Shown here one piece after another: positions 10,518-17,122 of a stretch of DNA of 33,069 nucleotides. A program made the translations under genes and the position numbers. The notes beneath the pieces were generated by a model, which saw only the letters and a list, made by a program, of their open reading frames with translations, ran no database searches and was not told the origin of the DNA. Origin of the DNA: Leuconostoc inhae KCTC 3774 (lineage in GTDB: Bacteria > Bacillota > Bacilli > Lactobacillales > Lactobacillaceae); assembly GCA_000166735.2 (NCBI GenBank), contig AEMJ01000551.1:1-33069 (forward strand), written 5' to 3'. The first letter of the stretch is position 1, and every line of letters begins with the position of its first letter.

Positions 10518-11813
10518 TTACTTACCGTTTTTTAACATATAATCATGATCCAAAGCTATTAAATGTGCATATGATTCACGTGCAATAACTACTTGATGTT
10601 TGCCATTTTCAACAAATACAACAGCTGGTCTTGGATTACGGTTATAGTTTGACGCCATAGCATATCCATAAGCACCAGTTGCCAAAACAGATAAAATATC
10701 GCCAGGTTTGGTTTTCGGTAACGCTTGTTGCCATACTAGCACATCCCCTGATTCACAATACTTACCTGCCACACGCACAACCTCTTGGGTTGATGCGTTA
10801 GGGTTATTGGCTAAGATTGCGTCGTAATTTGCCTGATAAAGCGCTGGCCGAATATTATCCCCCATACCCCCGTCAACTGCTAAGTAGTGACGTAAGTCAG
10901 GAATATCCTTCCGTGAACCAATCGTATAAAGCGTTTGGCCTGCTGGCCCGACAATTGAGCGACCTGGTTCAATCCAAATTTCTGGCATTTTCCAATCATA
11001 CTCGGCTGCTTTACTCTTCAATGTACGGATAATAGCGTCTGCATACTCGCTTTCAGGTAACGGTTCATCTTCTGACGTGTAACGAATACCAAAACCACCA
11101 CCAACATTGATAACTTCTGGTTGAAATCCCCAACTTTTTGCCGTCTCTGCTAATAGTGCAGCATTTTTTTCAAAACCAGTCACATCAAAAATTTGTGATC
11201 CAATATGTGCATGAAGGCCACGTAAATTAAAATTTTCATTCTGTCTAGCAATGTCATAAGCTGTCTTAGCTTGTCCTGTTAACAAATCAAATCCAAATTT
11301 AGAATCTTGTTGACCCGTACTAATGAATTCATGTGTATGCGCCGATATGCCTGGTGAAATTCGCAATAATATATCTTGTTTCACACCATTTTGAGTAGTA
11401 ATTTCTGACAATAGTTGTAATTCCAAGAAATTATCGACAATAATTGTTCCGACACCCTCGGTAACTGCCATGGTGAGTTCATCCCAACTTTTATTGTTGC
11501 CATTAAAACTTAGATGTTTAGGATCAAATCCAGCTGCTAATGCCGTGTAAAGTTCACCACCAGAAACAATATCAGCATGGATTCCTTCTTGCTGGGCCAC
11601 TTGATAAATGGCTTTGGAAGCAAATGCCTTAGACGCGTAACTCACGACATAAGGAACATCTTCTTTTTCAAAAATAGCTTTAAAATCACGCATAGTTTGA
11701 CGAATTTTAGTAACATCGTATACATATAATGGTGTCCCATAAGTTTTTGCTAAATCAATTGCGTCAACCTCACCAATTGTCAAATGTTGTGCCGTGTTTA
11801 TTGGGTAGCTCAT
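10518..11813 (-). CDS. lysA: Diaminopimelate decarboxylase
   Basis: LysA decarboxylates meso-DAP to lysine, the last step of the pathway, using PLP. At 431 aa it is intact. It shows the PLP lysine in SYASKAF, HAHIGSQI, the phosphate-binding GGGFGIRY, EPGRSIVG, and KYCESGDVL with the active-site Cys of the family. It is the first gene of the operon and lies directly downstream of the lysine riboswitch. AGGAG 7 nt before the ATG sets the start. A final-step gene under lysine control together with dapD, the deacetylase, dapA and dapB makes a near-complete lysine branch. Aspartokinase, asd, the aminotransferase and dapF must be elsewhere. Confidence 0.95.
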   Translation of the reverse strand: MSYPINTAQHLTIGEVDAIDLAKTYGTPLYVYDVTKIRQTMRDFKAIFEKEDVPYVVSYASKAFASKAIYQVAQQEGIHADIVSGGELYTALAAGFDPKHLSFNGNNKSWDELTMAVTEGVGTIIVDNFLELQLLSEITTQNGVKQDILLRISPGISAHTHEFISTGQQDSKFGFDLLTGQAKTAYDIARQNENFNLRGLHAHIGSQIFDVTGFEKNAALLAETAKSWGFQPEVINVGGGFGIRYTSEDEPLPESEYADAIIRTLKSKAAEYDWKMPEIWIEPGRSIVGPAGQTLYTIGSRKDIPDLRHYLAVDGGMGDNIRPALYQANYDAILANNPNASTQEVVRVAGKYCESGDVLVWQQALPKTKPGDILSVLATGAYGYAMASNYNRNPRPAVVFVENGKHQVVIARESYAHLIALDHDYMLKNGK

Positions 11814-11932: not shown

Positions 11933-12110
11933 CAATTTTGACTGTTTCCATAGCTCACCGTTATTTCTAACGACAGTCTAATAGTTATTAGCTATTAGCC
12001 CAACAAATATCTCTTTTGAAGACGATTCATTTCGGCGATATCCCCTTTTACTTGATTAACCTGTGATAACAGGTTAACCAAGCGACTCATGTCAATCGCG
12101 ACCTCTATGT
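11933..12110 (-). ncRNA. Lysine riboswitch (L-box) aptamer
   Basis: The minus strand carries the conserved L-box blocks in order. ATAGAGGTCGCG is the 5' part of P1/P2. ATGAGTCG and a P2 hairpin follow (TTAACCTGTTATCACAGGTTAA). Then come AAAGGGGATATCGCCGAAAT, TTGGGC, an inverted TAATAG pair, GACTGTCGTTAGAAATAACG, GGTGAGCTATGG and the closing AACAGT. Lysine binding is expected to favour the downstream terminator and switch off the lysA-dapB operon. It was recognised by eye from consensus blocks; covariance-model scoring was not run. Confidence 0.92.
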
Positions 12111-12135
12111 GAAATTAATTTTTTATATTGTAGTA

Positions 12136-12516: not shown

Positions 12517-13891
12517 TCAAAAAAGTGTTCGATTAATGACATCATTGCCATTAACAGATAGTATCTTACCGTTTTCATATACTGTCTGTAATAAGTCTTG
12601 ACCAGGATCATTTTGAGAAACGGTCACAATGTCCTTATCACGTAAAACAACCTTAAGCAGTCCAGCTTTTGATGTTTTTGCAGCATCAGTTTTAGGCTTT
12701 TTTGGATGTTAATTTTCTCACCGGCGGCATTCTCAGCATAAGCTGCTTTAATCGCAAATCTTTCAGTGTCTCGGGTAAACCCTTCTTGTAGCAAACCACC
12801 ACCTGAACCAACAACTAAATTATCTACTGACCAGCCGGCTTGCATAATTGCTTCATAAAGTGACACAATTGTGTCTGCTTTCATGCCATCTCCCTGAATC
12901 ACGCCAACATTATGCTGCAATACCTTATAGCCTTTATCATTAATTGTGGTGCCAAAAATATCCCCTAATAACGATAATACCTGTAAATCAATCGTTTCTG
13001 GCTCACCAGAGTCAGGGCGTAAAACAATTCGTCCGGCGCGTTTAATGATGCGGTCTTTAATTTCTGAGGAGCCAATAACTTTTTTAATAAAATTCAATGC
13101 ATCATATGAATCAATCACAATCGACAAAATAGCACTATCAGGTGCACGATCCAATTGCGCATTAACGTAGTCAAACTCTCCTTGACCTGCACCATAAGCA
13201 GTTGCGACTGAATGTTCAGTCGCCCACACTGACAAAGCACGTCCAGAAACACCATAAACATCTTTAAAATATTGTGAAGCAGCCATGTTATCGGATCCTT
13301 GGAAATGTAATAAGTGCGCAGAACCACCACGTTTACCTGATTCAAGCGAGGTCGCCCCACGTAAGCCAAAATCATTAACAGCTAGTGTTATGCCAGCTAC
13401 TGTGCCTGACTTTTCAAACAAAGGTCGCAAGCGTTTTTTATATACAAAGAGTTAGTGGCAATTGTCGTTGGATACCAAACATGCATGAGCACGACTTCTA
13501 ACGCATTTAAACTCGTTGCAAACCAGTCAGCTGTTGATTCAATTGTGAATAGCGCATTACCGGTTGGCACCTCAAGCCCTTCAGGCAATGCTTTAATTTT
13601 AACCGGAAAATAACCTAAATCGCGCACTTTTTCCCAGACTACACGATTAAAATAAGCTGATGTATTAAACGTCAGCTTAGATACTTGCTCGGCTTCATCA
13701 ATCATAGCGTCTGTGATTGGCTGATGAAAATAATCATGTAAAATCATAGACATACCAAACCAACTGACTGTATCAAAACGCCCACCAGTACGTGCTTCAC
13801 CGTAAGAGTAGAGTTTTGTAATATTTGTTGGATACTGTAAATGGTGTGTTAACTTGTAGGCATCTGTTGCCAGAATCAAATTTTCCGTCAT
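12517..13891 (-). pseudogene. nadV: Nicotinamide phosphoribosyltransferase (NAMPT/NadV), frameshifted twice
   Basis: NadV joins nicotinamide with PRPP to make NMN, allowing NAD synthesis from nicotinamide in one step. The pieces show TDAYKLTHHLQYP and YSYGEARTGGRF near the start. Later come GLRGATSLES, QGSDNMAA, SVWATEHSVATAYG, IVLRPDSGEPE, NVGVIQGDG and VGSGGGLLQ, all core NAMPT motifs including the PRPP and nicotinamide site regions. Adding one A to each of two A6 runs (T6 on plus, 13434-13439 and 12698-12703) gives one 458-aa protein of normal length, ending ENGKILSVNGNDVINRTLF. The ATG overlaps the stop of the upstream regulator (TAATG) and has GGAG nearby. Confidence 0.92.
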
Positions 13892-15394: not shown

Positions 15395-15930
15395 ATGAAC
15401 GAAACAAAGTTGATTGCCGACCTCGAAGAAATCAATCGTCATGTTGACAATGACAAAAAGCTACCTGGAGCTAAAACATTTATTTGGCAGCGGGCTGGTT
15501 CTCAGATACACAAGAAGTATTACTGAAAGATGCTTTTATTCAGCTCAGTGCTAATCCAACAATTGCACACATTCACGTGCCCCTGTTGCATCAATATGGC
15601 GGTATGGCATTAGGTGATGCTAATAGCGAACCAGATTTTGAATGGGGGGCTATGACCTATAAAGCAGACATCAAAGCAATTGACAATTCCGATCTCACTG
15701 TTGCGATTTTTGAGGCAGAAGATGCCGACACAGGTACAGCAATGGAATTAGGTTACTCGGTAGCTTCAAACACGCCGGTTGTGTCAGTATTTTCTGGAAA
15801 TATAGATCAACATCCAATTAACCTCATGCTATCCTTTGGTACAGATGCTCACGTCACATCGACTGCTGAATTAGCAAATTATGACTTCTTTGATATTACA
15901 CCCAATAAATATATGGGAAAGCTCATTTAA
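15395..15930 (+). pseudogene. Nucleoside 2-deoxyribosyltransferase family protein, frameshifted
   Basis: The family transfers 2-deoxyribosyl between bases through a covalent intermediate on a Glu. AGGAG lies 8 nt before ATG 15395. The first frame stops after 43 codons, and the main domain is in another frame. One base added near 15471-15483 gives YLAAGWFS, the family's first beta strand and loop, and a 178-aa protein. Further on are HIHVPLLHQYGG, the Asp/Tyr region FEWGAMTYKADI, and the catalytic Glu in GTAMELGYSVA followed by PVVSVF. The adjacent pnuC on the same strand raises the possibility that the substrate is nicotinamide riboside or a related N-riboside instead of a deoxynucleoside; this is inference. 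Confidence 0.82.
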
Positions 15931-15957
15931 TTTAACAATTCCTGATAAAAAGAAAGG

Positions 15958-16023
15958 TGCCAAGCCGCTCTCTCAAAGTACTGTCAAGTTGCAGAAACCA
16001 TCCAGAGTGCCTTAATTTTGGCA
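15958..16023 (+). ncRNA. Structured leader RNA of pnuC, candidate NAD+-II (pnuC-motif) riboswitch
   Basis: An outer 6-bp helix TGCCAA (15958-15963) with TTGGCA (16018-16023) encloses an inner helix CGCTCT (15966-15971) with AGAGTG (16004-16009). The loop is rich in unpaired A (CTGTCAAGTTGCAGAAACC). It ends 11 nt before the pnuC ATG, a position suited to translational control. Known pnuC-associated riboswitches in Lactobacillales sense NAD+. I identify this one by position and structure only, and have not matched it to a consensus. Confidence 0.5.
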
Positions 16024-16034
16024 AACGTAAACTC

Positions 16035-16850
16035 ATGCAAAACACTTCATCTAAACAAATTTCTCACTGGCAACTGATCAACCCACTTTGGTACGCTGAA
16101 CAATTCAAGGGTTGGACACGATTATCTTACACACTACTAAGTATTGGACTACTAATCATTGCCTATACCAGTTTTGGTATGGGTGCCCCAATTAGTGGTA
16201 TGACTTTTGCCACATTTTTTGCAGCAGCATTTGGTTGGACAACTGTCCTCGGTCTAAAAGAGGCAAAGCCTATGAATGGCCTTTTTGGTCTTTTATCGGC
16301 CGCTATTTATATTTATGTTGCTTGGTTACACAGTAATCCTGCTGACGCGGTATTACAATTAACCTATGTTATTTTATTAGACATACCTGTCTTGGTCATG
16401 CCGTCTTGGGTTAAAGATACTGACAAACATGTCCGCTTTATTCACGAAACAGATATTCGTGGCGAAAAACATGGTAAATCATTTTGGTACACTGTTATTG
16501 GTATCGTGGCTGTGGTCGCTTTCGTGGCCGCTTACTTATTTGAAACGCAAGTACTCCATACACCACGCCCAATATCAGATTCATTAGTATTAGGTACTGG
16601 TTTAGTCGGTGCTGTCTTAACAACTTTTCGTTTTTCTGAAAGCTGGTTTGCTTGGCTACTGCAAGGTATTATGCAAATCGCCTTGTGGGGATTTACTGTT
16701 GCAGCCGGAGGCGCACTCGGCGCCTCTGCCTTGGTTATTTTAGTTACCTACCTCATGTACTTTGCAAATGATGTCCTAGCTATTGTCCAATCATCATGGT
16801 TTCATCATAAAGAAATCACGGTACAACTAGCACAACGACATGTCAAGTAA
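16035..16850 (+). CDS. pnuC: PnuC-family nicotinamide riboside transporter
   Basis: PnuC proteins import nicotinamide riboside by facilitated diffusion, trapped by phosphorylation inside. The protein (271 aa from ATG 16035) has about seven hydrophobic spans and family features: WYAEQFKGWTRLSY, FGWTTVLGLKEAKPMNGLFG, ILLDIPVLVMPSW and a C-terminal TTFRFSESWFAWLLQG with the conserved Trp-rich helix. The frame is open back to a GTG at 15957, but that part is the structured leader and reads as non-membrane sequence. No Shine-Dalgarno precedes 16035, so the start is uncertain or the leader itself controls access. It probably forms an operon with the deoxyribosyltransferase. Confidence 0.88.
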   Translation: MQNTSSKQISHWQLINPLWYAEQFKGWTRLSYTLLSIGLLIIAYTSFGMGAPISGMTFATFFAAAFGWTTVLGLKEAKPMNGLFGLLSAAIYIYVAWLHSNPADAVLQLTYVILLDIPVLVMPSWVKDTDKHVRFIHETDIRGEKHGKSFWYTVIGIVAVVAFVAAYLFETQVLHTPRPISDSLVLGTGLVGAVLTTFRFSESWFAWLLQGIMQIALWGFTVAAGGALGASALVILVTYLMYFANDVLAIVQSSWFHHKEITVQLAQRHVK

Positions 16851-16948: not shown

Positions 16949-17122
16949 ATGGCTACCCCATCAAACAAGAACTCAAAGTCTCACAAGCGTAACCGCCGCG
17001 GACACATTGGTTTGAATGTTCCTAACATTATGTTGGATCAAACAACTGGTGAGTACCGTGTAGCTCACCGTGTCTCACCTTCTGGTGTTTATAACGGCAA
17101 GCAAGTTATAGAAAAGAAGTAA
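16949..17122 (+). CDS. rpmF: Ribosomal protein bL32
   Basis: A 57-aa basic protein of the large ribosomal subunit. The start ATG 16949 follows a perfect AAAGGAGG at 9 nt; the upstream in-frame ATG at 16925 has none. The N-terminus ([11 protein letters not shown]) and the segment [20 protein letters not shown] fit bL32. There are no cysteines, so this is the zinc-free (C-minus) form. The start MATPSNKN differs from the usual MAVPxRRTSK. It has its own promoter and a strong terminator, so it is monocistronic. Confidence 0.93.

Follow-up and report, generated by a model that had tools for sequence, protein, structure and literature searches.

The PnuC-family transporter gene of Leuconostoc inhae KCTC 3774 is preceded by a conserved leader that is best read as a structure-bridged, split ribosome-binding site and possible switch, a reading to which we give a probability of roughly 0.7 on comparison of related sequences. 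The only good Shine-Dalgarno (SD) sequence lies far upstream of the AUG, and a conserved helix, P1, separates the two. At a linear distance of 44–78 nt the SD would be too far from the start codon to be used with it by one ribosome; P1 would loop out the intervening RNA and bring the SD to about 11 nt from the AUG.

Architecture of the leader and spacing of the proposed ribosome-binding site

The window, i.e. the whole stretch of 33,069 nucleotides that was analysed, is of a Leuconostoc-type genome. Including its SD the leader covers positions 15951–16034, and it fills the gap between the stop codon of ntd and the ATG of the transporter gene at 16035. The features of the locus are the following:

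15395..15930, + strand: ntd, nucleoside 2-deoxyribosyltransferase gene, directly upstream (PF05014, E 2e-15 on 15484-15930)
15951..15957, + strand: AGAAAGG Shine-Dalgarno sequence, 77 nt from the AUG in the linear sequence, complementary to the 16S tail GGATCACCTCCTTTCT
15958..15964, + strand: 5' strand of helix P1 (7 bp), pairing with 16017-16023
15966..15971, + strand: 5' strand of helix P2, CGCUCU, pairing with 16004-16009, invariant in 8 species
15972..16003, + strand: inner domain, an internal loop CUCAAAG...ACCAnnC around P3, nearly invariant in 8 species
15981-15983 / 15992-15994, + strand: P3, a small hairpin within P2
16004..16009, + strand: 3' strand of helix P2, AGAGUG
16010..16013, + strand: CCUU, mimic of the anti-SD, invariant in 8 leaders (CCU in 12 of 12)
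16017..16023, + strand: 3' strand of helix P1 (P1'), covarying with the 5' strand
16024..16034, + strand: tail to the AUG, 11 nt, its length mostly kept and its letters free
16035..16850, + strand: PnuC-family transporter gene (PF04973, E 6.5e-22; TIGR01528, 73 bits; tree)
16949..17122, + strand: rpmF, named by eye from the sequence, with an ordinary SD; used as a spacing yardstick

The 16S tail is present once in the window's genome and four times in the complete genome of the same species. The ntd gene is frameshifted in the draft window, and intact copies are found in that complete genome and in related species. Elsewhere in the window a lysine riboswitch (RF00168, 93.9 bits) at 11943-12115 on the minus strand precedes lysA (10518-11813, TIGR01048) and is ordinary. 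A nicotinate/nicotinamide phosphoribosyltransferase gene at 12624-13891 on the minus strand is frameshifted in the draft assembly, being read as two overlapping frames.

The original prediction, made from the letters of the window alone, described two nested helices that end 11 nt before an ATG without SD. Both helices were located as P1 and P2, with P3 inside, and the comparison of related leaders backs P1, whose 3' end at 16023 indeed leaves 11 nt to the ATG at 16035. The sequence GTTGCAGAAACC, taken at that time for a single A-rich internal segment, actually comprises the P3 loop, followed by the 3' strand of P3 and then the internal loop. The AGAAAGG at 15951-15957, central to the element, sits just outside the range 15958..16034 to which that description was confined.

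Start-site prediction and leader searches usually seek an SD at most about 15 nt away from the start codon. The predicted lack of a good nearby SD holds for all 12 distinct leaders that were compared within the genus: over the 22 nt that precede the AUG the best score is 6–9, and the sole good SD lies upstream at a linear spacing of 73–78 nt (8 leaders) or 44–46 nt (4 leaders). With P1 and its contents looped out (33 or 64–67 nt), 10 of the 12 leaders have the last G of the SD at 11 nt from the AUG, the two others having 6 nt (L008) and 13 nt (L011). The bridged SD scores 17–22, including one or two tail bases where these pair, against the local 6–9. As yardsticks, the SD of ntd scores 17 at a register of 10, and that of rpmF scores 28 at a register of 11. 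For a broader yardstick 27 of the 36 open reading frames of the window were entered and 26 scored; 21 have a strong SD, at 8–12 nt in 16 of the 21, in a distribution that is biased towards strong SDs because each start was picked as the in-frame candidate with the strongest SD at 6–18 nt.

The split geometry was also searched for by the site's own measures, and on both strands of the window it occurs at one site, the leader itself. The background amounts to 0.1 per mononucleotide-shuffled strand (30 shuffles) and to one occurrence in 335,754 strand-bases of other loci. Since a good local SD is missing and P1 bridges the distance to 11 nt, the register of rpmF and ntd, the arrangement points to a split, structure-bridged ribosome-binding site, which the ribosome would use in its bridged form.

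The folding energy of the leader is ordinary, and the case for a structured leader therefore rests on comparison. A segment of 130 nt gives z = +0.26, with 115 of 200 shuffles folding equally well or better, and the 66-nt core gives z = -0.98, the cores of the other 11 distinct leaders ranging from -0.7 to -3.0. In the window's own minimum-energy fold two of the P1 pairs are shifted onto CCUU.

Conservation and distribution of the leader in Leuconostoc

Of 19 genomes of the genus, 13 have the transporter gene (E <= 1e-20). The window's species is present twice among these, and the comparison thus covers 12 distinct leaders of one genus. The leaders fall into two groups. In group 1 (L001-L008) the genes are 84–100% identical and the leaders form a 90-column alignment; in group 2 (L009-L012) the genes are 58–59% identical and the alignment is shorter. 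All 12 leaders have the order (A)GAAAGG-U-P1-C-hairpin-CCU(U/A)..AU-P1'-tail-AUG in common. GAAAGG is present in each of them and AGAAAGG in 10, L004 and L011 having GAAAGG. At the place of the inner domain of group 1, the four leaders of group 2 have a plain hairpin.

Alignment of related leaders, proposed earlier as a check for covariation, bears out P1. When G-U is counted, P1 is paired in all 84 cells of the 12 leaders, and compensatory changes on both sides are observed at pairs 3–6 and, in a single leader, also at pair 2. In the group-1 alignment 99.4% of the cells of all four helices are paired. Six cells carry changes on both sides, a count that, like the covariation score, exceeds all 500 shuffles; such changes fall on three pairs (9 of 500 shuffles as high), and further pair types are not above the shuffles (494 of 500 as high), figures that ignore relatedness, the changes in P1 representing few events. 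P2 and the possible pseudoknot described below do not vary among the eight group-1 leaders, and hence covariation backs neither of them.

The core of the group-1 leaders is far more conserved than the adjacent gene at its four-fold degenerate sites, 6% of which (of 85) are invariant in the eight species. In the same species columns 17–30 of the leader are invariant throughout (14 of 14) and columns 45–69 in 21 of 25 cases. Only 1 of the 11 tail columns (77–87) is invariant. These two invariant blocks might constitute a binding site in the DNA, and the leader would then be a DNA operator or another DNA-level signal; the compensatory changes in P1 and the near-fixed bridged distance to the AUG make this explanation very improbable.

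Covariance models link the two groups modestly. A group-1 model given five loci scores 27.1 bits (E 3.9e-5) on L009 and 21.6 bits (E 0.0012) on L011, and in the same search a chance place in L098 scores 19.9 bits. On the whole genomes of the genus the group-1 model does not report the group-2 leaders, and the reverse search by the group-2 model gives a single group-1 leader with a chance-level score. The two groups are probably related, as judged from architecture and locus more than from model scores.

The element tracks the transporter gene. Strong matches to the group-1 model occur in 9, and to the group-2 model in 4, of the 19 genus genomes, at one place each and always in the transporter leader, i.e. 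in all 13 genomes with the gene and in none of the 6 without it; eight further matches to the group-1 model in the genus have E values of 0.56–7.2. Four genomes lack the transporter gene and have an orthologue of ntd; in the three of these that were read, rpmF follows ntd directly and the leader is absent. In the group-1 genomes ntd adjoins the transporter gene in 9 of 9 cases (read from coordinates), and it is absent from this place in group 2.

Beyond the genus leaders, the 397 genomes of the family yielded four weak model matches, searches over 40 genomes having stricter filters by which weak matches are lost. L041 and L042 lie antisense to long open reading frames and were treated as chance matches. 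So were L096 and L097 (group-2 model, E 0.06–0.07), which were inspected as sequence only, and L098, one more weak match of the group-1 model in 246 genomes of the order, also antisense to a long open reading frame. The exact core pattern is found in 6 genome contigs, all from Leuconostoc (gelidum, inhae, miyukkimchii, rapi, carnosum and citreum), a set without the group-1 leaders of genome G007 and of the window's species, and no match to it was found in viral contigs. A tblastn search for ntd beside the transporter gene outside the genus, covering 36 loci with 1.5-kb flanks, returned only L031, which belongs to the window's species. In the literature that was searched no description of the element was found.

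Many of the leaders outside the genus (L013-L018, L049-L065), read by eye and not counted, show an ordinary SD. In two of them, L053 (around 1417-1461) and L055 (around 1413-1455), which precede transporter relatives in another genus of the family, an SD-like GAAGGGG is followed by a hairpin (GCTGGGC/GCCTAGC and GCTAGGC/GCCTAGT, respectively) and by 15 or 14 nt to the ATG, an arrangement that is perhaps a second split ribosome-binding site. In L009, L010 and L012, and likewise in L011, a short open reading frame with its own SD (e.g. MIQNNKRVIESNIVFIHSDW, translated by eye) lies upstream of the group-2 leader, its ATG being about 160 nt before that of the gene in L009, L010 and L012; it may be either a leader peptide or the remnant of a lost gene.

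Possible regulation and alternative explanations

In group 1 the nearly invariant inner domain and the CCUU, which resembles an anti-SD, together suggest a switch. CCUU could pair with AAGG at 15954-15957 across P1, leaving short loops (U and AAU) of a size that an H-type pseudoknot tolerates. In the ON state P1 would be formed with the SD free; in the OFF state CCUU would pair with AAGG in an H-type pseudoknot stacked on P1, and the SD would be hidden. The inner domain between P2 and P3, nearly invariant in the eight species, would be the sensor, and a small molecule or a protein would tip the balance. The CUCAAAG...ACCAnnC domain may be aptamer-like or protein-binding. A deoxynucleoside or a nucleobase may be guessed as the small molecule because of the neighbouring ntd. 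As group 2 is devoid of the inner domain, sensing cannot be general; the function common to all would be bridging, with sensing either gained or lost. The leader may thus, as a tentative proposal that falls short of probable, be a riboswitch platform of a new kind, with a sensing domain inside a split ribosome-binding site, in which the same RNA builds the site (P1) and can hide it (CCUU-SD) and which, perhaps responding to a deoxynucleoside or nucleobase, controls a Leuconostoc transporter of the nucleoside type.

A protein might instead bind the invariant inner domain and repress or activate translation, comparable to S15 and T4 gp32 on their pseudoknots, a mechanism that is compatible with the bridge. 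The invariance of the RNA domain in eight species favours it, and pseudoknot operators provide a precedent in the part of PMC3014915 consulted; we consider it rather unlikely.

The gene family name and the TIGR01528 score of the window gene (73 bits, cut-off 42) would suit a new riboswitch distinct from NAD+-II, with NAD+ or nicotinamide riboside as its ligand. However, the other PnuC-like protein of the genus outscores it (127 and 134 bits in the two tested) and groups with the PnuCs associated with NAD+-II riboswitches, which the window gene does not. In the phylogenetic tree, calculated without L022-L027, whose matches are weak, short or of a second copy, and without L031 of the window's species, the 12 leader-bearing transporter proteins constitute one clade (100/99). 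A 100/99 branch separates the side of the window gene from that of two NAD+-II-associated PnuCs and six PnuC-like rows, five of the genus and one of the family. In addition, the window gene has G at the N/D position of WxxWxxxN/D and other clade members have S; N or D at this position we take to be a sign of a PnuC of the nicotinamide riboside type. The pattern used for this motif misread L049-L052, L054 and L067; the alignment showed just two of these, L049 and L067. The co-directional neighbour, moreover, is ntd and not an NAD gene. A riboswitch of this kind therefore appears improbable. PnuN is a predicted deoxynucleoside transporter in the part of PMC7749635 consulted, which cites Rodionov and Gelfand (2005). 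The adjacency of ntd in group 1 suggests that the window gene encodes a carrier of the deoxynucleoside type, putatively PnuN-like by its context.

A transcription attenuator or terminator after ntd would fit the position of the leader between two co-directional genes. No terminator-like site is found in the leader and no T-run after P1', and three species with ntd and without the transporter gene lack the element, such that this function is highly improbable.

The original prediction saw in the structured leader before pnuC a candidate member of the NAD+-II riboswitch class. A conserved, probably cis-acting leader in front of a PnuC-family gene was confirmed, whereas membership of the class was rejected. 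The downstream gene family, the structured leader and the possibility, common to both, of a pseudoknot that pairs with the SD had spoken for it, as had the nicotinate/nicotinamide phosphoribosyltransferase gene, which lies about 2.1–3.3 kb away on the opposite strand and is the only link to NAD seen nearby. The NAD+-II (pnuC) motif has been reported from Streptococcus in two papers, Haemophilus influenzae being also named in the part of PMC10085692 consulted. Among 246 Lactobacillales genomes, 11 contained its pattern; they belong to a single genus, presumably Streptococcus. A model built from four leaders of that genus and run with filters off scored 92–96 bits on these four and gave no match on any of the 12 leaders. 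Its best match in the window (12.6 bits) lies at another place, and the best elsewhere in the genus (22.5 bits, L010 1296-1338) lies outside the leader. The topology differs as well: in NAD+-II the SD is located 3' of the aptamer beside the AUG, on the opposite side from the 5' SD of the studied leader. The A5 strand and the AAAAGGAGA that follow P1 in NAD+-II were not found, the window having AACGTAAACTC after P1' and the NAD+-II leaders AAAAACAAAAGGAGA. With class model, topology, SD position and PnuC clade all against it, membership is extremely improbable.

In the whole window the lysine riboswitch described above is the sole Rfam 15 match to reach its gathering score; with E relaxed to 10, a search of 241 bases gave four implausible matches. 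This check is uninformative, since three real NAD+-II loci are also without a match. These loci, L066, L067 and L076, carry real NAD+-II leaders that remain unmatched at the gathering score, and the validated class therefore appears to be missing from Rfam 15. The gene downstream of the L066 leader is, as judged by eye, not pnuC.

Finally, translation might start at a GTG at 15957, with the leader encoding an N-terminal extension, since the frame is open in the window and 5 of 12 leaders (L001, L003, L009, L010 and L012) have the GTG in an open frame with the gene; this is extremely improbable, as the GTG overlaps the SD itself and is absent or out of frame in the other 7, of which 5 have a stop in the frame of the gene within the leader. 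These stops, and the fact that no in-frame start is common to the 12 leaders, make a coding leader unlikely, although an ATG in frame follows the SD by 14 nt in L012 and in-frame GTGs lie further on in L011.

Comparison with known systems

The structure-bridged, split ribosome-binding site would provide a comparative case in a cellular gene, in which the spacing is kept mostly to the base across 44–78 nt by covarying pairs. It suggests that ribosome sites can be built by selection in three dimensions; the leader is also a cheap system that can be tested directly. Should the inner domain act as a sensor, the switch design would be one without a match in Rfam 15. As a caution, the PnuC-family clade of the window gene should not be read as that of a nicotinamide riboside transporter.

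With the NAD+-II riboswitches the leader shares a PnuC-family gene, a translational type of organization and a possible pseudoknot with the SD. It differs from them in having the SD 5' of the structured domain and not beside the AUG, in the absence of a model match and in the clade of its gene. The pseudoknot operators of T4 gene 32 and E. coli rpsO, as treated in the part of PMC3014915 consulted, are alike in principle, with control of initiation by a pseudoknot; the putative pseudoknot of the leader, in contrast, would contain the SD itself.

The closest parallels in design are found in phage T4. According to the same part of PMC3014915, structure shortens the distance between SD and AUG from 27 to 11 nt in gene 25 and from 22 to 5 nt in gene 38. 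In both cases, as in the leader, an intervening structure would cut an overlong spacing, here from 73–78 or 44–46 nt to mostly 11 nt. Unlike these phage genes, the gene studied here is cellular, and its leader would loop out 33 or 64–67 nt. The leader adds to the T4 arrangement a nearly invariant inner domain (in eight species) and a CCU(U) that resembles an anti-SD; the likeness drawn is one of design.
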